Of a stretch of DNA of 64,000 nt, positions 5,970 through 64,000 are shown piece by piece. The position numbers were made by a program, and so were the translations under genes. How positions within the stretch are numbered: the stretch's first letter is position 1; the number at the start of each line of letters is the position of its first letter. The stretch spans positions 1,550,001 to 1,614,000 of the forward strand of contig NZ_ADVG01000004.1 of assembly GCF_000178855.1 (NCBI RefSeq). The letters run 5' to 3'. The stretch comes from Ktedonobacter racemifer DSM 44963. Its GTDB lineage: Bacteria; Chloroflexota; Ktedonobacteria; Ktedonobacterales; Ktedonobacteraceae. The notes beneath the pieces are model-generated. The model made no database searches. It was given only the letters and a program-made list of their open reading frames with translations, and was not told where the DNA came from.

Positions 5970-6042
5970 TACTGTCATAGAGGCAAGGGGTGTGGTGGTT
6001 TGGCTCCGTCAAACCACCACACCCCTTGCCTCTATGACAGTA
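5970..6042. repeat. Long perfect intergenic palindrome (33-bp arms)
   Basis: Arms 5970-6002 and 6010-6042 are exact reverse complements with a 7-nt loop. It sits between the TetR gene (ending 6072) and the CoxG-like gene start. The arm contains AAGGGGTGTGGTGG, also present in the palindrome at 9378-9435. One of a family of such palindromes in this window. Confidence 0.85.
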
Positions 6043-6781: not shown

Positions 6782-6846
6782 CGGTGGTATAGGATGTGGT
6801 GGAGCAAATGCCTGCGGCATTTGCTCCACCACATCCTATACCACCG
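6782..6846. repeat. Long perfect palindrome between divergent genes (31-bp arms)
   Basis: Arms 6782-6812 and 6816-6846 pair perfectly around a TGC loop. It lies between the divergent tetR and doxX genes, where a terminator would serve neither. A small imperfect hairpin (AGCGCCTGCGACGCT) abuts the left side, reminiscent of the mini-hairpin next to other members. Confidence 0.85.
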
Positions 6847-8053: not shown

Positions 8054-8142
8054 GCCCAACGCTGCTCAAGCACGCGTCTACATATAAATGGGCACCATGC
8101 CCGTATCATTATATGTAGACGCGTGCTTGAGCAGCGTTGGGC
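8054..8142. repeat. Long palindrome (34-bp arms) upstream of chrB-like gene
   Basis: Arms 8054-8087 and 8109-8142 are exact reverse complements. The spacer itself folds (GGC..GCC). It lies between the stop of the 76-residue membrane protein and the start of the ChrB-N gene, both on the minus strand. Confidence 0.85.
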
Positions 8143-9377: not shown

Positions 9378-9435
9378 AGGAAGGGGTGTGGTGGAAAGAC
9401 AGGCTTGGCCCTGTCTTTCCACCACACCCCTTCCT
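9378..9435. repeat. Long perfect palindrome (26-bp arms) downstream of DUF4097 gene
   Basis: Arms 9378-9403 and 9410-9435 pair perfectly. It lies between the DUF4097 gene end (9461) and the FTR1-like gene start (9228), both minus strand. The core AAGGGGTGTGGTGG is shared with the palindrome at 5970-6042. A GTCCATGC/GCATGGAC mini-palindrome follows on the right. Confidence 0.85.
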
Positions 9436-13803: not shown

Positions 13804-13890
13804 TAAAGAAGTGCCAGCGACGTGCGGGCGATCAGCCCGCACGTCGCTGGCACTTCTTTATTCTTGCGAGCCACGCAGTGGCGAGAAGTC
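13804..13890. repeat. Long perfect palindrome (26-bp arms) with 25-nt mini-hairpin
   Basis: Arms 13804-13829 and 13835-13860 pair perfectly around GATCA. Five bases later a 25-nt unit (13866-13890) begins GCGAG, folds as CCAC-GCA-GTGG and ends CGAGAAGTC. The same unit, with altered stem bases, accompanies the palindromes at 53144, 26036 (inverted) and 45416 (inverted). Confidence 0.85.
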
Positions 13891-46710: not shown

Positions 46711-46785
46711 TAATGAGGGAAGTAAGCGACAGGGGAGGTTGCGGGCGCTGCCCGCAACCTCCCCTGTCGCTTACTTCCCTCATTA
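46711..46785. repeat. Long perfect palindrome (36-bp arms) starting at the GH2 stop codon
   Basis: Arms 46711-46746 and 46750-46785 are exact complements around GCT. The right-hand last three bases are the stop codon of the minus-strand GH2 gene. It lies about 90 bp upstream of ribD (same strand). Confidence 0.88.
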
Positions 46786-48561
46786 GATTTTCTCGATGGC
46801 AGCGATGCGCGTCTGGACGTCGCGAATGCGCTCTATATCGAACTTCTCTTTACGGTCAAAGGTATAGATGCCGTTCTGCTCCTGGTAGACATCAGTGAGC
46901 TGGGTGTAGCAATAACCGAACATCGCGGCATCATCCAGGAGGACGTCGCAGAGGCCCTTGAAGCGGTCGTAGAACTCATCGAGGGACCTGGGCGCGGCAC
47001 CATAGCCCCAGCTATCTTTGCCTGGCTCGACCTCAGGATTCCACCAGATGCCACCGAACTCGCTAACAAAGTAGGGCTGGTTGCGATATGGGACAGAGAT
47101 CACTTGCTCGCGGTGACGATTAATGAAGGGCTTATTCTCTCCAGTTCCGGCGTGGTTGGCCGCGAATTTGACCGGGTCCTGCTCATAATCATGGCTATCG
47201 TAGATATCGGTCTCGGGAACGCGGTGACTATAGCCAGACGTGTCGAGGACCGGGCGTGTGCTATCCATGGCTTTAGTGGCCAGGAACATTGCGCGGGTAA
47301 CATCGTCGAGCACAGTGGTACGGTCGGTGAGGACCTGCCAGGTCTCATTCAAGGGACACCAACCCACGATCGAGGGGTGAGAGTAGTCGCGTTCAATCGC
47401 TTCTAGCCACTGAGTGACATAAGTCGCGCCAGGCTGCTGGTGATCATCCTCGCGCCCATATCCGCCGCAGCCCCAATCGGGGAATTCGCCCCAGACCAGG
47501 TAGCCCAGGCGGTCCGCATGGTAGAGGAAGCGCTCCTCAAAGACCTTCTGATGGAGGCGCGCTCCATTAAAGCCAGCCTGCAGGCCAAGCTTGATGTCAT
47601 GGACCAGGGCCTCATCGCTAGGCGCGGTCATGATGCCATCGGGATAGTAGCCCTGGTCGAGCACCAGGCGCTGGAAAACGGTTTGCCCATTAATTTTGAC
47701 GGCCTTGCCATCAATGGTCACACTGCGCAGGCCCGCGTAGCTGGTCGCGGAATCAACGGCCGTCTCTCCGTTGAGGAGTTCAATCTCCAGGTCATAGAGA
47801 TAGGGAGACTGCGTGGACCAGTAGTGACGGCGCTCCTCGGGAATAGGCAGCGTCACCTTGGGAGAGAAATCACGGTCGGCGGGCACGCTCACAGTGCAGA
47901 TCTCGCCCGCATCATCTTTCAGGCGTACGCGCAGGGTTAAACCCGTGCCCAGGGCACTCAGAGGTTGGGTCAAGTTGAAGCAGCCATGTGCCACATCGGG
48001 CGTAATGCGTGGGCGCTTGAGCGAGACGGTGGGGACTGGCTCCAGCCAGACTGTCTGCCAGATGCCAGTTGTGCGCGTGTAGAGGCAGGAGTGGTTTTCA
48101 TAGCGCTGGGACTGCTTGCCGCGTGGCTGAGGAGGTTGCGCGGTATCACGCGCACGCACGACGATGGTCACATCGCTGCCAGCCAGGCCAGAGGGGATCT
48201 CACAGCTAAAGGGTGTGAAGCCGCCGCGATGACGAGCTACCTCAGTGCCATTGACCCAGACGGTGGTATCATAATCAACTGCCTGGAAGTGGAGTAGCAC
48301 GCGTTGCTCACCCCAGGAACTAGGAATGGTCACGGTACGGCGATACCAGACCGCGGGCATGAAATCGGTGTTGCCGATGCCAGAGAGTTCGGACTCGGGG
48401 CAGAAGGGAACGAGGATACGATCTTGTAGTTCACGCTGCACCAATCCGCGCTCAAGGCCGCTATCACCCGCGTCGATCTCAAATTGCCATTCACCATTGA
48501 GGTTGAGCCACTCAGAACGGACAAACTGAGGGCGAGGGTATTCTGGACGAGGTATGCTCAT
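46783..48561 (-). CDS. GH2-family glycoside hydrolase (beta-galactosidase/glucuronidase-like)
   Basis: A 592-residue enzyme with the three core GH2 domains. A sugar-binding jelly roll spans about residues 10-170 (LNLNGEWQFEID, VWYRRTVTIP, DYDTTVWVNG). An Ig-like sandwich follows (about 175-275), then a TIM barrel. The acid/base Glu is in WCPLNETWQ and the nucleophile in YFVSEFGGIWW. No signal peptide, so it acts on imported oligosaccharides. ATG 48561 follows AAAGGAG. It is divergent from an AraC regulator 77 bp away, probably its activator. Confidence 0.9.
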   Translation of the reverse strand: MSIPRPEYPRPQFVRSEWLNLNGEWQFEIDAGDSGLERGLVQRELQDRILVPFCPESELSGIGNTDFMPAVWYRRTVTIPSSWGEQRVLLHFQAVDYDTTVWVNGTEVARHRGGFTPFSCEIPSGLAGSDVTIVVRARDTAQPPQPRGKQSQRYENHSCLYTRTTGIWQTVWLEPVPTVSLKRPRITPDVAHGCFNLTQPLSALGTGLTLRVRLKDDAGEICTVSVPADRDFSPKVTLPIPEERRHYWSTQSPYLYDLEIELLNGETAVDSATSYAGLRSVTIDGKAVKINGQTVFQRLVLDQGYYPDGIMTAPSDEALVHDIKLGLQAGFNGARLHQKVFEERFLYHADRLGYLVWGEFPDWGCGGYGREDDHQQPGATYVTQWLEAIERDYSHPSIVGWCPLNETWQVLTDRTTVLDDVTRAMFLATKAMDSTRPVLDTSGYSHRVPETDIYDSHDYEQDPVKFAANHAGTGENKPFINRHREQVISVPYRNQPYFVSEFGGIWWNPEVEPGKDSWGYGAAPRSLDEFYDRFKGLCDVLLDDAAMFGYCYTQLTDVYQEQNGIYTFDRKEKFDIERIRDVQTRIAAIEKI

Positions 48562-55630: not shown

Positions 55631-58036
55631 GTGCGATCCGTTCAGCCGAAACTTGCTGGATAAGTAAGGGGAAGGCTGGCAAGACATTGATCAATGTCTT
55701 GATAACTGATTATCTGACGTGAGGTGCAATTCCTCACCTGTGAAGTGAGCACGGAAAGACGATGCCCTACGGTAGCGACTGGTCCTCAATCCGTAAAGCG
55801 GGTATCCAGGAGAGGAAACTGCTAGTCTGAAGCAGACCCATCTCCGAGTCAGGCGGCTATGGTTAGCAGTTCATTCAACAGAATGAATAACGCGAATGTG
55901 CAACGGAACCATCGTTAGGTTGAACAAGTCAAACAGGCTGATAGACTTGACCAAAAGGTAAGGTACCAATCTGCGAAACAATGGAGAAAGTGAAAGGGTA
56001 GTGTAGTGATACCCTGCCTCACTCACTAGCGTACCCGGTGGATAGCACAAACCTACGGCAGCGCAAAACAGATAATCGGAACGGAGTAACTCGAAGGTAC
56101 GCTCTCATTGGAGGTCGATACGATGAGCAGGAAACCATCCGCAAGCTGCCTCCGAGAAGGATTGCCTAAAAAGCCAATGCCTGGGGTAATGCCCAGGATA
56201 TGCTGACGTAGGCACGGTAACATGGAATGAAGAGAAACGAGTAGTATGGTGAAAACGAAGGCACCCAAGATCAAGCTACCACCTGACCCTGAGAGTGAAA
56301 GTTGGAACAAACTGCCCTGGCGCAAGCTCGAGCAGCATGTTTACCGCCTACAAAAGCGCATCTTCAAAGCCGAGAGCCGTGGCAACACAAGAGCAGTCCA
56401 CAAACTACAGAAACTTCTGATGAAATCCAGAGCGACAAGGCTTTTAGCGGTTCGACGAGTGACCCAAGACAACCAGGGAAAACGCACAGCAGGCATTGAC
56501 GGAGTAAAATCAGTCAAACCGGCCCAGCGTTTCACTCTGGCTGAACAAATCCACCCCAAGCAATGGTCTCAATACAAACCCCAACCAGTGCGAAGGATCT
56601 ATATTCCCAAGCCTGGAAAGGATGAGAAAAGACCCTTGGGGATTCCCATCATGCGAGATCGCTCGCACCAGTGCCTCGTAAAGTTCGCTTTAGAGCCACA
56701 ATGGGAAGCCAAATTTGAACCCAATAGCTTTGGTTTCCGCCCTGGACGTTCCTGTCATGATGCAATTCAAACCATTCACACCAATATCTGCACACAGGCA
56801 AAGTATGTCCTGGATGCCGATATTAAAGGAGCATTTGATCATATTGATCATCAGGCACTTCTCGCCAAACTCGACACCTATCCCGCAGTAAGGCTGCTTG
56901 TGAAAGCTTGGCTCAAAGCGGGAATCATTGATAATGGCATATTTGACGAGACCCGGAAAGGAACCCCGCAGGGGGGAGTCATCTCACCATTACTTATGAA
57001 TATCGCGCTTCATGGTATGGAAACGGACTTGATAGCGGCCTACCGGTGGAAGGAGGGACGACCCAAATTTGTCCGCTACGCCGATGATCTGGTGGTTTTC
57101 CATCCCAAGCTCGAAGGCGTCGAAAAAGCAAAAGAAATCCTTTCGGAATGGTTACAGCGCATTGGACTAGAACTCAAGCCGAGCAAGACACGGATCACGC
57201 ACACCTTGATGGAATATCAGGGAAAAACGGGATTTGATTTCCTTGGTTTCACCATACGCCAGTATCCGATGGGGAAAACACACACCGGAAAGCGGCCTAA
57301 TGGTCAACCACTTGGCTTCAAGACACTCATCAGACCCAGTAAGGAAGCGATTGCGCACCATGTGAAAGAAACGCATCGTCTGGTAGCAGAGCACCGGAGC
57401 ATGAAACAGGAAAAGCTCATTAAAGAGTTGAACCCGGTCATTTACGGATGGGCAAACTACTACCGAAGCATCTGTGCAAGAAGGGCATTCAAGCACTGCG
57501 ACATGGTACTTTTTCGACAACTGGAAAGATGGGCGAATCGCAGGCACCCAAACAAAAATCGACACTGGATTATGCAAAAGTATTGGAAAGTGGATGAAGG
57601 AAAGGGATGGATCTTCCGAACCCCCGACCTACAACTACGAAACCACCAACAAACATACATCCGGCGTCATGTAAAAGTGAAAGGAACTGCCAGCCCATAT
57701 GACGGAAATCTTCTTTACTGGAGCCAGCGACTCAAGAAACACCCGCTTCTTAACGGAGTTAAAGCAAAACTTTTACAGAAGCAAGAGGGAAAATGCCGTT
57801 GGTGTGGACTGTACTTCAAAGATGAAGACCTCATAGAGATCGATCACATTACCCCGAAAAGTGAAGGAGGCGGAGAGGAATTGAGCAACAAGTTCGCTCT
57901 CCATCGTCATTGCCACGACGAGCGCCACTCGAAAAAGGCCAACGGTACCTACGACAAAGGCCATGTTACTGAGGAGCCGTGTGACGGGAAACTGTCAAGC
58001 ACGGTTTTGAAGACGAGTAGGAGTGGTGACACTCAT
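55631..58036 (+). mobile_element. Group II intron inserted in tnpB
   Basis: About 2.4 kb. The proposed 5' end is GTGCGATCCG after the tnpB codons for KSLNQ; the 3' end is ACTCAT after domains V and VI. Between the 5' end and the RT start (56246) are about 615 bases with many small helices and no other gene, fitting intron domains I-IV. Flanking tnpB coding is continuous in homology across it. The exact splice points are uncertain by several bases: the canonical choice does not restore the frame. Confidence 0.85.
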
Positions 58037-58042
58037 GCTTAG
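56246..58042 (+). CDS. ltrA: Group II intron reverse transcriptase/maturase with HNH endonuclease
   Basis: A 598-residue intron-encoded protein. The reverse transcriptase (about residues 70-340) includes RRIYIPKPGKDEKRPLGIP, GFRPGRSCHDAI, GTPQGGVISPLL and the catalytic RYADDLVVF near 275. Maturase domain X (about 380-460) contains NPVIYGWANYYRS. The C-terminal HNH domain (about 510-575) has CRWCG, IEIDHITPKSEGGGEE and HRHCHDERH. It assists splicing and retrohoming. The frame runs through domains V and VI and stops only in the downstream exon, which is unusual. Confidence 0.93.
   Translation: MVKTKAPKIKLPPDPESESWNKLPWRKLEQHVYRLQKRIFKAESRGNTRAVHKLQKLLMKSRATRLLAVRRVTQDNQGKRTAGIDGVKSVKPAQRFTLAEQIHPKQWSQYKPQPVRRIYIPKPGKDEKRPLGIPIMRDRSHQCLVKFALEPQWEAKFEPNSFGFRPGRSCHDAIQTIHTNICTQAKYVLDADIKGAFDHIDHQALLAKLDTYPAVRLLVKAWLKAGIIDNGIFDETRKGTPQGGVISPLLMNIALHGMETDLIAAYRWKEGRPKFVRYADDLVVFHPKLEGVEKAKEILSEWLQRIGLELKPSKTRITHTLMEYQGKTGFDFLGFTIRQYPMGKTHTGKRPNGQPLGFKTLIRPSKEAIAHHVKETHRLVAEHRSMKQEKLIKELNPVIYGWANYYRSICARRAFKHCDMVLFRQLERWANRRHPNKNRHWIMQKYWKVDEGKGWIFRTPDLQLRNHQQTYIRRHVKVKGTASPYDGNLLYWSQRLKKHPLLNGVKAKLLQKQEGKCRWCGLYFKDEDLIEIDHITPKSEGGGEELSNKFALHRHCHDERHSKKANGTYDKGHVTEEPCDGKLSSTVLKTSRSGDTHA
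57974..58007 (+). ncRNA. Group II intron domain V
   Basis: A 34-nt element starting GAGCCGTGTGACGG, with a GAAA-type tetraloop (GGGAAAC), a two-base bulge and an ending ACGGTTT. It has the length and layout of catalytic domain V. Domain VI follows up to 58036. Both overlap the coding frame of the RT. Confidence 0.88.
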
Positions 58043-58616
58043 TTTTAACAACAAAGAGCGCGCCAAGCAGCAGCAACGCCTCGCGCATGAGAACCGATAC
58101 ACTTCACGCCAGCTGGATCGCGTGACGACGAAGCGCAATCGCCGTGTGGATGCGTATCTGCACACGGCCAGCCGTCGGATCATTGATCTGCTGGTGGGCG
58201 AAGGCATCGGAACGCTGGTGATTGGCAAGAATCCCTTGTGGAAACAAGAGGTGACCATGGGACGCAGGAACAACCAGCAGTTTGTGCAGCTTCCCCATGC
58301 TCGTTTCATTGAGCAGTTGACCTACAAAGCGCACCTGGTGGGGATCAGGGTCATCCTTCAAGAAGAAAGCTACACCAGCAAGGCCAGTTTTCTGGACGAC
58401 GACCCCATCCCAACCTATGAAGCCAACACGGCTGAGAAGCCGGTGTTCTCAGGCAAGCGTGTGGCTCGCAGTTGGTATCGTGCCAGGGATGGACGCCTCA
58501 TTCATGCCGATATCAACGGATCCTACAACATCTTACGCAAAAGTAGCTCCGACCCTTTGCAAGTGGGGCGAGGAGTAGCGGGAGCCGCAGTTCTCCCCAG
58601 ACGGCTGGCCGTCTGA
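58037..58616 (+). pseudogene. tnpB: tnpB 3' part, downstream of the group II intron
   Basis: C-terminal half of the tnpB begun at 54961. It resumes as SFNNKERAKQQQRLAHE, in line with the YNKQRAVLQ of the 62913 copy. It continues with THE family blocks VTTKRNRRVDAYLHTASR, IGTLVIGKNPLWKQE, RRNNQQFVQLPHARFIE and EESYTSKAS, ending with RuvC-III (HADINGSYNILRK). At the usual RuvC-II Glu position it reads VIGKN, and the zinc-knuckle Cys after YTSK is Ala. A hairpin CAGACGGC/GCCGTCTG (58598-58615) at the stop marks the element end. Confidence 0.85.
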
Positions 58617-58706
58617 ACGGATGACTTATAGGCATATTCGTCATCATTTTAAGATACTGTAGCAGGACATTGCCTGGTCGAACTGCTTTCCTCTATTCTG
58701 TTAATA

Positions 58707-58767
58707 AGGTAGGAATGTGGCGTGTTTTTGCGGGCTCAGCCCGCAAAAACACGCCACATTCCTACCT
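58707..58767. repeat. Long perfect palindrome (30-bp arms)
   Basis: Arms 58707-58736 and 58738-58767 are exact complements around one C. Arm core AGGAATGTGGCGTG resembles the AGGATGTGGTGG core at 6782. Lies between the tnpB end and the hydrolase, both plus strand. Confidence 0.87.
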
Positions 58768-58825
58768 ACAACAAGGCCTACGAAACGGGCCAGAGCTGAA
58801 TGGTGTACCTCATGGAGGAGGCTGT

Positions 58826-60061
58826 ATGACCTTTTTAAGAAAGCTTTTGCAGAAGCGGGGAGGGCTGCTGTTAAAGGTGGCTGGGGGTCTTATTCTTGGA
58901 GGTATAGTGCTTGGAGGTGGTGGATTGATCTATTGTGGCATCATGAGTCACACGGCGCGCGAATTGCCAAAGCCAGGCGGCCCGTATGCGATTGGGCGAA
59001 CCGTATTTGACTGGGTCGACCAGGCGCGGCCCGAGACTTTTGCCCATAAGCCCGGGGTCAAGCGAGAACTGATGGTCTGGGTCTGGTATCCCGCGCAGTC
59101 AGGCGCGAGCAAGGAGGCGGCAAGTTATCTTCCCTCTAAGTGGGCGCAGGCCTGGAACCAGTATCATGGCGGTTCTCTCTTTGGAGACTGGCTTATTTCG
59201 CGAGCCGAAACTATTCACGCACATGCATTTGAGAATGTGCCACTCGCCACGAACCAGGCTCGCTACCCAGTGCTGATTTTCTCGCCTGGCATGGGCCTCT
59301 TGCCCACAGATTATACTACTCTGATTGAAGACCTGGTAAGTCATGGCTATATCGTCGTAGGCATCGCTCCGACCTATAGTGCCTCCGCCGTGGTCTTCTC
59401 TGATGGTCGTGTGGTCCAGGCGACTGAAGAGGGGAAAGGCGGCAACGACTCCGACCCGGCAGATGTTATCAATGCGCATCTCCAGCAGATTGAGAAGATC
59501 TGGGCCGCGGATACGATCTTCGTCATGAATCAACTAGAGCACTTGAATAGTGTTGGGCAGAGCCTGCTTGCTGGCAGATTAGACCTGGAGCGCCTGGGCC
59601 TCTTCGGGCATTCTTTTGGTGGAGCGACCGCCGCGGAGGTCTGTCACCTGGACGAGCGTTGCAAGGCTGGCATTGACCTGGATGGAAACCTTTTTGGCAA
59701 TGTTGTGCAGCAAGGGCTTACAAAGCCATTCCTCTTTATGCATCATGGTACTATAGACGATTGTAACGACTGCAAGGACCTGTTTACGCAAGCTCGCTCT
59801 GTGCTGAGAACGGTACCCACGGGCGAGAAATACATACTTGGCGTTGAAGGCATGAAACACATGAATTTCTCTGACTTCTCGGTCATGTTTTCGCCCTTTA
59901 AGCTTATGGGAATACTCGGTCCCATTGATGGAGCACGAGGATTAAGTATTACCAGTGCTTATGTACGGGCCTTCTTTGACACCTATCTCAACCAGAAGCC
60001 TTCGCCATTGTTGCGTGGTCCGGCCTCGGCGTATCCTGAAGTACGTTTTGATCAATTGTAG
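58826..60061 (+). CDS. PAF-acetylhydrolase-like alpha/beta hydrolase, membrane-anchored
   Basis: A 411-residue hydrolase. A hydrophobic N-terminal segment (about residues 12-38, Gly-rich) anchors or exports it. The domain resembles platelet-activating-factor acetylhydrolase isoform II: KRELMVWVWYPAQSG, YPVLIFSPGMG (oxyanion strand), LGLFGHSFGGATA (Ser nucleophile), DLDGN (Asp) and a late His in MKHMNFSDF. It likely cleaves esters or short acyl phospholipids. GGAGGAGG precedes ATG 58826. Confidence 0.85.
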   Translation: MTFLRKLLQKRGGLLLKVAGGLILGGIVLGGGGLIYCGIMSHTARELPKPGGPYAIGRTVFDWVDQARPETFAHKPGVKRELMVWVWYPAQSGASKEAASYLPSKWAQAWNQYHGGSLFGDWLISRAETIHAHAFENVPLATNQARYPVLIFSPGMGLLPTDYTTLIEDLVSHGYIVVGIAPTYSASAVVFSDGRVVQATEEGKGGNDSDPADVINAHLQQIEKIWAADTIFVMNQLEHLNSVGQSLLAGRLDLERLGLFGHSFGGATAAEVCHLDERCKAGIDLDGNLFGNVVQQGLTKPFLFMHHGTIDDCNDCKDLFTQARSVLRTVPTGEKYILGVEGMKHMNFSDFSVMFSPFKLMGILGPIDGARGLSITSAYVRAFFDTYLNQKPSPLLRGPASAYPEVRFDQL

Positions 60062-60203
60062 CAGAGGAGTGGCGCCGCTACAGCTAATAGTTGTTTTCGC
60101 CTACAGAGGCCATACATTCTTGACAAGCTCATCTTCTAATTTTATGATAGATGAGCCTGTATGTTTGCTATTCTAATAATTTCGAGAACGTCTTTGGAGA
60201 AAC

Positions 60204-61034
60204 ATGATGTTTAAGCCGCTCCGTTTTGATCCCATTCTCAAGGCTATTCCAGGGTTGGCTCACCTGCGCCTGACTCCTCACGCGGCGCATAATGCGAAGA
60301 AGCATGCGCGTGTGCATGTGGATGAGCAAGTGGAGATAGATCAGGTTCAGGCGACCCCCAAGGGTCTCAAAGAGACGCGTATACGTGAAAATATCCAGAA
60401 AGACGTGAAGGTCGAGCGGAGGAGGGGCGAGACGACGACCGAGGTTCATGAGCGCATCACTGAGGACATTAAGGTCAAGAGGGTTGAGAGTGATGGTGTG
60501 CCAAGTGAAACGTTGATGCATGTGCATACGACTATCGAAGATGTCACGCATATTGAGATGACGCCGCCTCATCCCCCACGTGAGGAGACGCCAATCTACC
60601 AGCGCACGCATCATCACCTGGTGCATGTTCTGGACACGCCCTGCGCGATCTGTGGCGTGCGTAATTCAACCCTGCAAGATCCCAAGGAGAATCCCTTTGG
60701 CGCGCAGGATATTGAGACGCACCACTATCCAATCGAGCGGAGCCTGCTAAACGCCTGTGATCCAAAGAAGGTGCATCACATCTTTCCCCAGGTCAAGGAT
60801 TACGAATCTCTCGAGGATTTCGTTGATTCCGAGGCGAATATGATGGTGTTGTGTGATGTCCATCACCGCCATCCCCATTATGGTATTCACCATATCCTGG
60901 CGCAGGACTTCTTTGTGCAGCCATTCCTGTATGGTGGGTACGAGGTCGTTGCGGAGGTTGACGAAGTGGAGAAGGTCATGGTGGCTAATGAGCGCGTCAT
61001 TAAGCGCCATGCTCCCAAAGATCTTGATAACTAA
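60204..61034 (+). CDS. HNH-fold domain protein with charged N-terminal region
   Basis: A 276-residue protein. Residues 1-130 are highly charged, with EKRx-type repeats (VEIDQVQATPKG, KDVKVERRRGETT, HERITEDIKVKRVE), probably extended beta or coil. Residues about 150-250 contain an HNH-like core: CAICGV, then ETHHYPIERS, and NMMVLCDVHHRHPHYGIH. The second zinc knuckle is reduced to one Cys plus His residues, so nuclease activity is doubtful. No mobile-element marks surround it. It converges on a histidine kinase, sharing one perfect palindrome. Confidence 0.72.
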   Translation: MMFKPLRFDPILKAIPGLAHLRLTPHAAHNAKKHARVHVDEQVEIDQVQATPKGLKETRIRENIQKDVKVERRRGETTTEVHERITEDIKVKRVESDGVPSETLMHVHTTIEDVTHIEMTPPHPPREETPIYQRTHHHLVHVLDTPCAICGVRNSTLQDPKENPFGAQDIETHHYPIERSLLNACDPKKVHHIFPQVKDYESLEDFVDSEANMMVLCDVHHRHPHYGIHHILAQDFFVQPFLYGGYEVVAEVDEVEKVMVANERVIKRHAPKDLDN

Positions 61035-61097
61035 CGTAAAAATAGTGAGAAGCCAGTTAGGCGGCCGCCTAACTGGCTTCTCACTATTTTTACGTTA
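61032..61097. repeat. 66-bp perfect palindrome spanning stop codon to stop codon
   Basis: Arms 61032-61064 and 61065-61097 are exact complements with GCGGCCGC at the centre. The first TAA is the stop of the HNH gene and the last TTA is the stop (TAA) of the convergent histidine kinase. The A5/T5 runs give each transcript a hairpin with an A-rich foot and T-rich end, so it can terminate both ways. Confidence 0.9.
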
Positions 61098-62762
61098 TGA
61101 TTTATTTAGAGGGAGGGTAAACCAGAAGGTTGAGCCCAGTCCTGGGGTGCTGGTGACACCGACGCGTCCACCCTGGCGCTCGATAATTGAGCGGCAGATG
61201 AAGAGGCCCAGGCCCAGGCTGACCCCGGAACCGTTGCGTACATGAATGCCGGGGGCGCGATAGAAGCGTTCCCAGATTCGTTTCTGCTGTTCCTCATTCA
61301 GTCCAGGCCCCTCGTCACGTACAGAAACAGAGACCGCGTTTGATTTTAGAGTAACCTCGACGGCGACGGGCTTATCGGTGTCAGAGTATTTCAGCGCGTT
61401 GGTCAGGTAGTTGTTGATGACCTGTTGCACGCGCTCGGGATCGGCCTTGATCCGTATTTCAGCCTCCTCAGGCATTATGAGCTGTATCATGCGATCAGGA
61501 TGCAGCGTGCGTTGGTCCTCGACGCAATCCTGAAGGCTCTCGACGAGATTATATAGACGCGGGCGCAGTTCCATGCGGTCGGCGCGCACACGCGAGGCAT
61601 CGAGGAGATCATGAACCAGGCGGTTTTGCAGCTCAAGCTGATGCTCGATGCGCAGGAGATTCTTCCGTAACAGAGAGAGCAGGTCACTCTTCTCCTCTAC
61701 CTGTGGTTGGCTGCCAAGCACGCGCTGTACCTTGCGTTCAGAGACCTGAACACACATCTTTGCTGCGGTAATTGGCGTACGTAACTCGTGTGCTACGACA
61801 CTGATGAAGTTATCTAGCTCAGCCAATAGGTGCTCTACCTTATGGCGTGCCTGCACCTGCTCGGTAACATTGGAGCCGATGATAATCACACCATTGACGT
61901 TCCCATCAGAAGCAAGCATAGGCTGATACGCTACGTTATAGTACTGTTCAACCAGGGAGCCGTCGTTGTGCTGATCGACAAGAACACGATGTTCGACAAT
62001 CGAATGCTCTTTGCCAGTTGTACGTACTTGTTGAATCACGGGCGCGACTTGAGAGGCATACTCAGGCAGGGTTTCTTGCAAGGTTTTGCCCAGAACCGGG
62101 CGCTGACCAAAGGCCTGCCAGGCATTGGGATTAACAAGTTCAAAGCGCTGCTCATCTTTGCTCAGGACGATAATGGAAACAGGGGCTTGCATCAGGATGC
62201 GCGAGAGATTCGCGCGTGCAGCCTCTGCATCGGCGCGAGCTTTGATTGTCTGGTGATGCGCACGTTGTACCTGAGTGCTCAGCAGGGTTATGCCCAGGCC
62301 AACCAGGGTAAACATAAACATGCTATAGAAAAATTCAATCTGCTCAAGTGCCAACGAGATATGCGGTGGTAGGACCAGGAAGCCTAGCAGGAACGTACCC
62401 CAGAGTGTCGCAAGCAGGCCAGGAAGTGCTCCCCAGCCCAGAGAGACGATGAGGATGCCCAGCACTACAGGTGCGCTAACAAAGCTTAATTCCGGAGCGA
62501 TACCTTTAAGGTAGAAGATTCCCAGAACTGTCAGGAAAGGCAGCAGTAGAGCCAACATATAGCCAGCTAAAGGTCGGCGTAGAGGGGCTGGCAGATATGA
62601 CGGTGTAAAGACTGAGGCTCCCCAGAACGCATACAGGCGTTTCCAGAAACCCTGATTGCCTGGATTTATGCGCCAAGTGTTCTGCTCAATAGAAGATGCA
62701 GGATGCTGTGAAACCTGTTCTTGGAGCGTTGAGGTTGATTTTTTGTGCTTGATTGTGTGCAT
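61095..62762 (-). CDS. Sensor histidine kinase (DUF4118-PAS-HisKA-HATPase)
   Basis: A 555-residue membrane kinase. Residues about 65-175 contain four membrane helices of the KdpD-like DUF4118 type. A PAS domain (about 190-300, VSIIVLSKDEQRFELVNPNA) with a PAC-like tail follows. The H-box is FISVVAHELRTPITAAKM, with phosphoacceptor His near 322. The ATPase domain has NYLTNALKYSD (N-box), VRDEGPGLNEEQ (G1) and GLGLFICRSIIERQGG (G2). No response regulator is adjacent. It may act on an unlinked partner or the stand-alone receiver at 1907. Confidence 0.92.
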   Translation of the reverse strand: MHTIKHKKSTSTLQEQVSQHPASSIEQNTWRINPGNQGFWKRLYAFWGASVFTPSYLPAPLRRPLAGYMLALLLPFLTVLGIFYLKGIAPELSFVSAPVVLGILIVSLGWGALPGLLATLWGTFLLGFLVLPPHISLALEQIEFFYSMFMFTLVGLGITLLSTQVQRAHHQTIKARADAEAARANLSRILMQAPVSIIVLSKDEQRFELVNPNAWQAFGQRPVLGKTLQETLPEYASQVAPVIQQVRTTGKEHSIVEHRVLVDQHNDGSLVEQYYNVAYQPMLASDGNVNGVIIIGSNVTEQVQARHKVEHLLAELDNFISVVAHELRTPITAAKMCVQVSERKVQRVLGSQPQVEEKSDLLSLLRKNLLRIEHQLELQNRLVHDLLDASRVRADRMELRPRLYNLVESLQDCVEDQRTLHPDRMIQLIMPEEAEIRIKADPERVQQVINNYLTNALKYSDTDKPVAVEVTLKSNAVSVSVRDEGPGLNEEQQKRIWERFYRAPGIHVRNGSGVSLGLGLFICRSIIERQGGRVGVTSTPGLGSTFWFTLPLNKS

Positions 62763-62912
62763 ATAGGCCTCCTTCGAGGTTTTAGCCGCTGGAGCACATC
62801 ACTTTATGTGAGGCTCGTAACTGCAAGCACCATGCAGTATATGTGTATAGCCTTTAAAAGGGAGAGACTCTAATAGGAGCTTGTGTTTGAGCTGATAATA
62901 GTTCCGTCGCGA

Positions 62913-64000
62913 CTAGCGAATCCTGACAGGAGCCAGGATTTTCTCGCGAGCGGGTTTGTGAGGGAATGACTTCCTCACCGGATGGACTACCGGCAGATGG
63001 ACCCTGCACTCCCCATCCTCTACTCCCTTGCGCTCGAAAGCTCCAGGAGCTACTTTGCGGATAATATTCCCTGCGCCATTGACATCAGCATGGATGACCC
63101 GCCCATCGGCTGCTCGATACAGTCCCCGCTCGATGCGCTTGCCGCTAAACTGGTAGGCCACCTGCTCGCCTTTGCGATACACGGGCAGGGGGTCGAGATC
63201 AAGCAAGCTGGCTTTGCTCGTGTACGACTCTTCGGTGAGGATCACGCGAATGCCGACCAGTTCCGCTTTATACTGGAGCATCTGAATGAAGCGCGCATGC
63301 GGGATCTGCACAAAGTGCTGATTGGTGCGCTTCCCTAAGCGGATCTCTTGTTTTTGCAACGGATTCTTGCCCATGATCAACGTCCCGATCCCCTCGGCGA
63401 CCAACAGATCAATCAGGAAGCGGCTGGCCGTATGCAGGTCGTGCTCGATCCGCCGGTTGCGTCGAGTCGTCAACTGTTCCACGCGCCGACTTCGGCCAGG
63501 ATGTCCGAGGGATTTCTGGAGCACTGCTCGTTGTTTGTTATAATACTGGTTACAGGACTTGATGCCGCGCCCGTTAACAATCACCGGGACAAAGCCTGGT
63601 TTGTTTGAAGTTAGCGTGGCCAGATTATCCATACCCGGATCGAGTCCGGCGAGCAGATCAGGATCAACCGCCGTGACGGTGGGTTCGTGTTCAGAGATGA
63701 CTTCGACCACGACATAGCCCACTTTGGGAACCACGCGCACCTGCGCGATGGCTTTGGGGTCTTGCCGGGTTTTCACCTGGATGCCCAGTTGCGAGGGCTG
63801 GATGATCCCCCGATCCAGGGTCCGTTTGCCCCGGCTCACCGCTTGCATGGTATAGACGAGCAGGTTACGCCCCTTCGCCTTGGGCAAGTACTTTGGGAGT
63901 TGAGGACGCCCCACGAACTTTGCCGGGGTCTCTCGATACACCAGAAGCGCCGCCCAGAAACTCGACCAGGCGGTGCAGACCTGCTTGAGCACCTGTTGCG
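62913..64000 (-). CDS. tnpB: TnpB-type nuclease, N-terminus beyond right window edge
   Basis: The frame is open to the right edge, giving at least 362 residues. RuvC-I is LLAGLDPGMDNLATLTSNKPGF and RuvC-III is VIHADVNGAGNIIRK. Family blocks THRRNRRIEHDLHTASR-like, IGTLIMGKNPLQKQE and RTNQHFVQIPHARFI lie between. As in the intron-split copy at 54961-58616, the RuvC-II Glu position reads MGKN, and the zinc-knuckle Cys is Ala (YTSKAS). After RuvC-III there is a 50-residue basic tail. A hairpin AATCCTG/CAGGATT overlaps the last codons and marks the element end. Confidence 0.87.
   Translation of the reverse strand, partial: QQVLKQVCTAWSSFWAALLVYRETPAKFVGRPQLPKYLPKAKGRNLLVYTMQAVSRGKRTLDRGIIQPSQLGIQVKTRQDPKAIAQVRVVPKVGYVVVEVISEHEPTVTAVDPDLLAGLDPGMDNLATLTSNKPGFVPVIVNGRGIKSCNQYYNKQRAVLQKSLGHPGRSRRVEQLTTRRNRRIEHDLHTASRFLIDLLVAEGIGTLIMGKNPLQKQEIRLGKRTNQHFVQIPHARFIQMLQYKAELVGIRVILTEESYTSKASLLDLDPLPVYRKGEQVAYQFSGKRIERGLYRAADGRVIHADVNGAGNIIRKVAPGAFERKGVEDGECRVHLPVVHPVRKSFPHKPAREKILAPVRIR
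62919..62940 (-). repeat. Right-end hairpin of the tnpB element
   Basis: AATCCTG (62919-62925) pairs with CAGGATT (62934-62940) over the last tnpB codons, similar in place to the hairpins at 28075 and 58598. Confidence 0.55.

Follow-up and report, generated by a model that had tools for sequence, protein, structure and literature searches.

A perfect stop-to-stop palindrome between convergent genes of Ktedonobacter racemifer: a probable bidirectional terminator within a large class of long hairpins

Results

The palindrome between two convergent genes

In the 64,000-nucleotide stretch of Ktedonobacter racemifer DSM 44963 DNA analyzed here (the window), the genes for an HNH-like protein and a sensor histidine kinase converge on a single palindrome (Table 1). 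An earlier note, made from the sequence alone, had described this palindrome as perfect and 66 bp long, and our inspection bears this out: it consists of 2 × 33 bp with a spacer of 0, and pairing stops at its edges, where 61031 (C) and 61098 (T) are unpaired. Its first TAA (61032–61034) is, as had also been noted, the stop codon of the HNH-like gene, and its last three bases are the TAA (61097–61095) that ends the kinase gene on the opposite strand. The matches at the two stops depend on each other, since a TAA at one end of a palindrome forces a TTA at the other. As RNA, the palindrome folds into a hairpin of −52.9 kcal/mol (z −14.9), which was equalled by none of 200 shuffles. Neither an Rfam search of positions 58001–64000 nor a search of plasmid records for the convergent gene pair yielded a match.

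Genes were called with a simple coding-potential caller made for this analysis and not taken from curated annotation. Pfam confirms the histidine kinase (HisKA, HATPase_c) as well as a GH2 gene at 46783–48561 on the minus strand, whose stop codon is indeed reached by a second palindrome. The HNH label given to the first gene stands less firmly: the CxxC and His-rich motifs are present, but no Pfam family matches at E ≤ 1e-3. Orthologues of this protein are confined to part of the family.

A terminator scan was positive on both strands, with the inner stem followed by TTTTTACGTT in each case. A stable hairpin directly followed by a U-tract, the arrangement of an intrinsic terminator, is hence present in both directions, and one stem with a terminator score on each strand lies 3' of both convergent genes. 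The G+C-rich stem is bordered by an A-tract at one end and a T-tract at the opposite end, and either transcript would thus form the hairpin and then the U-tract.

Table 1. Coordinates of the genes and hairpin features in the window
Feature	Position	Strand	Evidence or remarks
HNH-like 276-aa ORF	60204..61034	+	CxxC and HH motifs by eye; orthologues in genus and family
Sensor histidine kinase (DUF4118, PAS, HisKA, HATPase_c)	61095..62762	-	Pfam; convergent to HNH-like gene
Perfect palindrome, stop codon to stop codon	61032..61097		Inspection and RNA fold
Inner stem with terminator-like core	61043..61086		Two-strand terminator scan and orthologues; also stem in G015/G016
U-tract TTTTTACGTT for the 60204-61034 transcript	61087..61096	+	Absent in G015/G016, TATTAAGATTA instead
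U-tract TTTTTACGTT (minus strand) for the kinase transcript	61033..61042	-	TTTTTAC part retained in G015/G016
Second palindrome, arms 36, loop 3	46711..46785		Covers TAA of GH2 gene
Further class member (arms 33, loop 7)	5970..6042		Compensated changes in relatives
Further class member (arms 26, loop 6)	9378..9435		Compensated change in relatives
Further class member (arms 26, loop 5)	13804..13860
Further class member (arms 30, loop 1)	58707..58767		Conserved in G016, compensated change in G015

The same locus in congeners

The HNH-like and kinase genes are adjacent and convergent also in three congeners (G014, G015, and G016), two of which, G015 and G016, share about 93.5% DNA identity with K. 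racemifer. In these two, the hairpin between the genes runs from AATAGTG to CACTATT. Outside it, the left flank reads TAAGGTAAA or TAGCGTAAA (K. racemifer, TAACGTAAA) and the right flank AAGATTA (K. racemifer, TTTACGTTA). Both stop codons are present in these relatives, yet the outer 9 bp, stops included, are unpaired, and relative to the stops the hairpin edges lie at offsets of +6 and +4 as opposed to −3 and −3 in K. racemifer. The stem itself reads GTGAGAAGCC/GGCTTCTCAC in K. racemifer and GTGCGAGGCC/GGCCTCGCAC in the relatives, with two pairs differing on both sides, and the loop is TGT in G015 and ACA in G016, an exact inversion. In G014, the same convergent pair is separated by an unrelated hairpin with 19-bp arms, well past the stop. 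The kinase-direction U-tract is found in G015 and G016 as TATTTTTAC, whereas the HNH-like direction has TATTAAGATTA there and thus lacks a U-tract, which means that the K. racemifer extension supplies the U-tract of the second gene. With three close genomes compared, K. racemifer may have gained the outer extension, the reading adopted here, or the relatives may have lost it. The palindrome at the GH2 gene has C instead of T as its outermost left base in both G015 and G016, and it therefore stops one base short in these species.

A genome-wide class of long perfect hairpins

The K. racemifer genome comprises 13,661,586 bp in 10 contigs, and the stretches that we sampled cover about 9% of it. 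In these 1.17 Mb, we counted 232 perfect inverted repeats (minimum arm length 14 bp, longest arm 42 bp, spacer of at most 25), nearly all of them intergenic, while a Markov shuffle of the same 1.17 Mb contained no palindrome of the class; by extrapolation, we estimate that there are two to three thousand such hairpins genome-wide. The thresholds of 14 and 18 bp for the arms, the alignment filters, and the measures reported here were all chosen during the analysis, none having been set beforehand. Among hairpins whose arms reach 18 bp or more, convergent gene pairs account for 52 (173 such pairs), tandem pairs for 97 (610 pairs), and divergent pairs for 32 (172 pairs). Their density is 105–180 per Mb in the sampled stretches of three Ktedonobacter genomes, compared with about 9 per Mb at the recA loci of other bacteria (80 loci, mostly from other phyla), and a 100-kb sample of E. 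coli K-12 contained no arms of 18–42 bp. In other genera of the family, loci likewise carry arms of 23–39 bp.

The hairpins cluster just 3' of genes, while gene 5' starts are much more distant. The T content of the outer 3' arm is 35–42% in gene-end hairpins versus 18–31% in divergent ones, and U-tracts are weak in many gene-end hairpins of the class. We also observed that, where arms are 18 bp or longer, the 3' arms of the palindromes are G-poor and pyrimidine-rich on both strands, and likewise in divergent regions, where terminators are unexpected. Loss of SbcC was considered as a cause of the hairpins; the sbcC model matched one SbcC-like frame of 1050 aa in K. racemifer, weakly and under the cut-off, and most of the control genomes gave the same kind of match. 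A paper on Ktedonobacteria genomes (PMC13289182) mentions neither palindromes, hairpins, nor terminators.

Palindrome edges relative to stop codons

The earlier note had drawn meaning from the exactness with which the palindrome runs from stop to stop. That argument fails, because orthologous hairpins sit at other offsets in relatives, the very outcome that the note had said would refute it. Across the class, palindrome edges become steadily more frequent from −13 (13 nt inside the gene end) outward and are commonest at +2 to +6 relative to the stop, without a peak at the stop (9, 9, 9, and 10 cases at offsets −4, −3, −2, and −1 in three genomes). We accordingly rejected the stop codon as a fixed boundary, the offsets being smooth and showing no excess at −3. 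The exact stop-to-stop arrangement (−3, −3) occurs in 1 of 51 convergent cases, where partner shuffling predicts 0.04 in the sample and, by simple scaling, about half a case genome-wide. Both edges lie at or inside the stops in 5 cases of the K. racemifer sample, against 1.2 expected (P ~0.001), an excess that is not significant in the two relatives. When gene ends are compared between species, the offset is kept in 17 of 74 comparisons and shifts by at least 5 in 30. The exact fit is specific to this species and mostly incidental, most likely a by-product without separate meaning.

Paired changes and loop inversions

Stem pairs that differ between species on both sides are far more frequent than expected if the two sides changed independently, with observed versus expected counts of 28/4.7, 29/4.7, 34/2.4, and 31/1.6. 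As these four comparisons are small in number, overlap in part, and lack independence, we take the resulting excess of 6–19 times expectation to be strong but rough. All of these two-sided changes but one restore pairing. Pseudo-pairs in the flanks, subjected to the same test, show no such excess (8/8.6, 4/5.2, 7/5.0, and 11/6.9). Only 11 hairpins are comparable in all three species, and assigning their changes to branches gives 9 paired versus 12 single ones.

The loops tell a similar story. Between G015 and G016, which are 96% identical, 26 loops of 3–12 nt could be compared, of which 10 are exact reverse complements, 7 are identical, and 9 fall into neither group; about 40% of the short loops are thus inverted, some of them 10 nt long, where chance is negligible. 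None of the flank windows of the same length is inverted. Assembly errors at inverted repeats could in principle produce inverted loops, yet loops beside arms of 18 bp are inverted too. Two marks of template switching were found, namely a paired excess that is absent in flanks, seen across the class and accompanied by two such pairs at the focal stem, and exact loop inversion, in the class as well as at the focal locus.

Dispersed palindromes

The genome contains further palindromes of a different kind. Dispersed palindromes sharing 9-mers such as GGGTAAGGG and GGTGTGGTG are missing in relatives at several sites, mostly between divergent genes; the example at 6782–6846 is absent from both relatives. 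One family of repeated palindromes, recognized by the core ACGCGTCTACATAT, is represented at 8054–8142 of the window and at C7 1209187–1209272, 1260631–1260697, and 1701070–1701135; its member in the window is absent from the relatives, which have a different hairpin at the site. Four palindromes with the near-identical core TTTTTGCATATCCCCCCGAAACG lie within 35 kb (C7 1649516–1649606, 1651547–1651605, 1655740–1655792, and 1684530–1684612). Half palindromes also occur (C7a palindromes 35 and 94), where the relative holds one arm and the apex, or one arm, and K. racemifer the full palindrome. The whole genome has 20 matches to Y1_Tnp (IS200/IS605-type), several of them broken. The dispersed palindromes that share 9-mers are likely a separate set that is mobile or turns over rapidly.

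Discussion

The suggestion in the earlier note that such palindromes act as shared bidirectional terminators is supported by the two-strand terminator score, by the presence of a hairpin at the same gene pair in three congeners, and by the clustering of the class at gene 3' ends. We consider it probable, from sequence comparison, that the palindrome at 61032–61097 would work in vivo as the bidirectional intrinsic terminator of both genes, its pairing being kept by template switching. Its closeness to the stop codons bears on this reading. In E. coli, the efficiency of one terminator fell from ~90% to under 10% when it lay 5 bp after a stop, an effect caused by the ribosome, beside which 10–15 nt of free mRNA are needed between stop and stem (PMC4824070). 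Here, the inner stem begins 8 nt after the stop of the HNH-like gene and the full stem at the stop itself, and the ribosome may therefore mask part of it, though ~20 bp would be left. Hairpins that overlap a stop have longer arms than others (mean 31 vs ~25), which fits compensation for ribosome masking without proving it.

Replication template switching is the most likely process to keep the stems perfect and to lengthen them. A polymerase that copies one arm from the other (quasipalindrome correction) would generate paired changes in a single step, and the same copying would invert loops and lengthen stems. Published work on rRNA (PMC8794818) and yeast (PMC8604942) describes homogenized arms, extended stems, and inverted spacers as the traces that template switching leaves, and the Ktedonobacter hairpins resemble those cases in all three, the loop or spacer being inverted exactly. 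Loop inversions accompanied by compensatory mutations were extremely rare in rRNA (PMC8794818), whereas in this genome-wide set of bacterial hairpins at gene ends ~40% of short loops are inverted. At the focal locus, CGTAAA was most likely copied across as TTTACG. Such an extension would have aligned two pre-existing TAA stops, which form an inverted repeat (TAA...TTA), and so produced a stop-to-stop palindrome by coincidence; copying the A-tract across would at the same time have provided the second gene with a U-tract.

The bidirectional terminators of Bacillus cereus (PMC5381666) are the closest counterpart on the side of function, since there, too, a single stem lies 3' of both convergent genes, is followed by a U-tract in either direction, and shows paired changes between relatives. 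They also frame the most serious alternative, in which selection on the RNA hairpin is all that maintains the pairing of a terminator, with compensatory mutations arising in the ordinary two steps. Rapid switches of this two-step kind have been documented in B. cereus, an excess of paired changes could result from strong selection for RNA pairing (PMC5381666), and the relatives retain a hairpin between the two genes. Exact loop inversions, on the other hand, need a DNA-level step; paired changes are about as common as single ones in G015 and G016 (34 vs 35 and 31 vs 21), G-U is only weakly preferred to A-C among single changes on the transcript strand (37 vs 26 and 52 vs 41), and the stems are much longer than a terminator requires. 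The 33-bp perfect stem reaching both stops, the loop inversions, and the weak preference for G-U intermediates likewise set the present hairpins apart from the B. cereus set, and we regard two-step selection as the sole cause as unlikely. The length of the stem, far beyond that of intrinsic terminators, and its start at the stop codon would also suit a post-transcriptional 3'-end stabilizer or RNase III processing site, as would the lack of a strong U-tract in many class members; since the focal palindrome has a good U-tract on both strands, a function of this kind in place of termination seems improbable to us. Inverted repeats are enriched just downstream of stops in E. coli as well, where they are mostly terminators (PMC6060812), although the arms of 18–42 bp in Ktedonobacter distinguish the two.

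Readings that dispense with the transcript altogether fare worse. A cruciform, a protein-binding site, or a separator of convergent replication or transcription would account for the perfect DNA symmetry and the scant preference for G-U over A-C, but pairing is conserved and sequence is not, the focal site has no common motif, the location of the hairpins tracks gene 3' ends, and the focal palindrome has U-tracts; we give such a DNA-level element very little credence. Equally far-fetched is a mobile palindromic element of the REP or MITE type inserting at gene ends. K. racemifer has a very large, transposase-rich genome (PMC3236041), with the Y1_Tnp matches mentioned above, and its dispersed palindromes share 9-mers and have empty sites in relatives. 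The focal palindrome is, like REP/BIME or MITE elements, palindromic and intergenic, but differs from them in both respects that would identify one: no further copy exists in the genome, its strong matches in congeners being orthologues only, and relatives carry an orthologous hairpin at the same gene pair in place of an empty site. It also has no 9-mer in common with the other palindromes of the sample. Being single-copy and without an empty site, it does not support the proposal that these elements insert at, or spread from, gene ends; that idea may suit the dispersed palindromes, for which the likeness to REP/BIME or MITE elements is better.

How long perfect stems originate and are kept up is debated between two-step compensation and template switching. 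With thousands of long perfect hairpins, by our estimate, and sister species whose loops are often exact reverse complements of each other, the question becomes directly measurable in a bacterium. Beyond the role of template switching as such, we tentatively raise the possibility, somewhat short of an even chance in our judgment, that Ktedonobacter has an unusually high level of template switching at inverted repeats, and that this mutational process, not selection for termination, sets the length of the hairpins. If so, gene-end hairpins would be continually re-copied and would become longer, perfect, and symmetrical, turning one-way terminators into two-way ones and growing until coding sequence is met on both sides.
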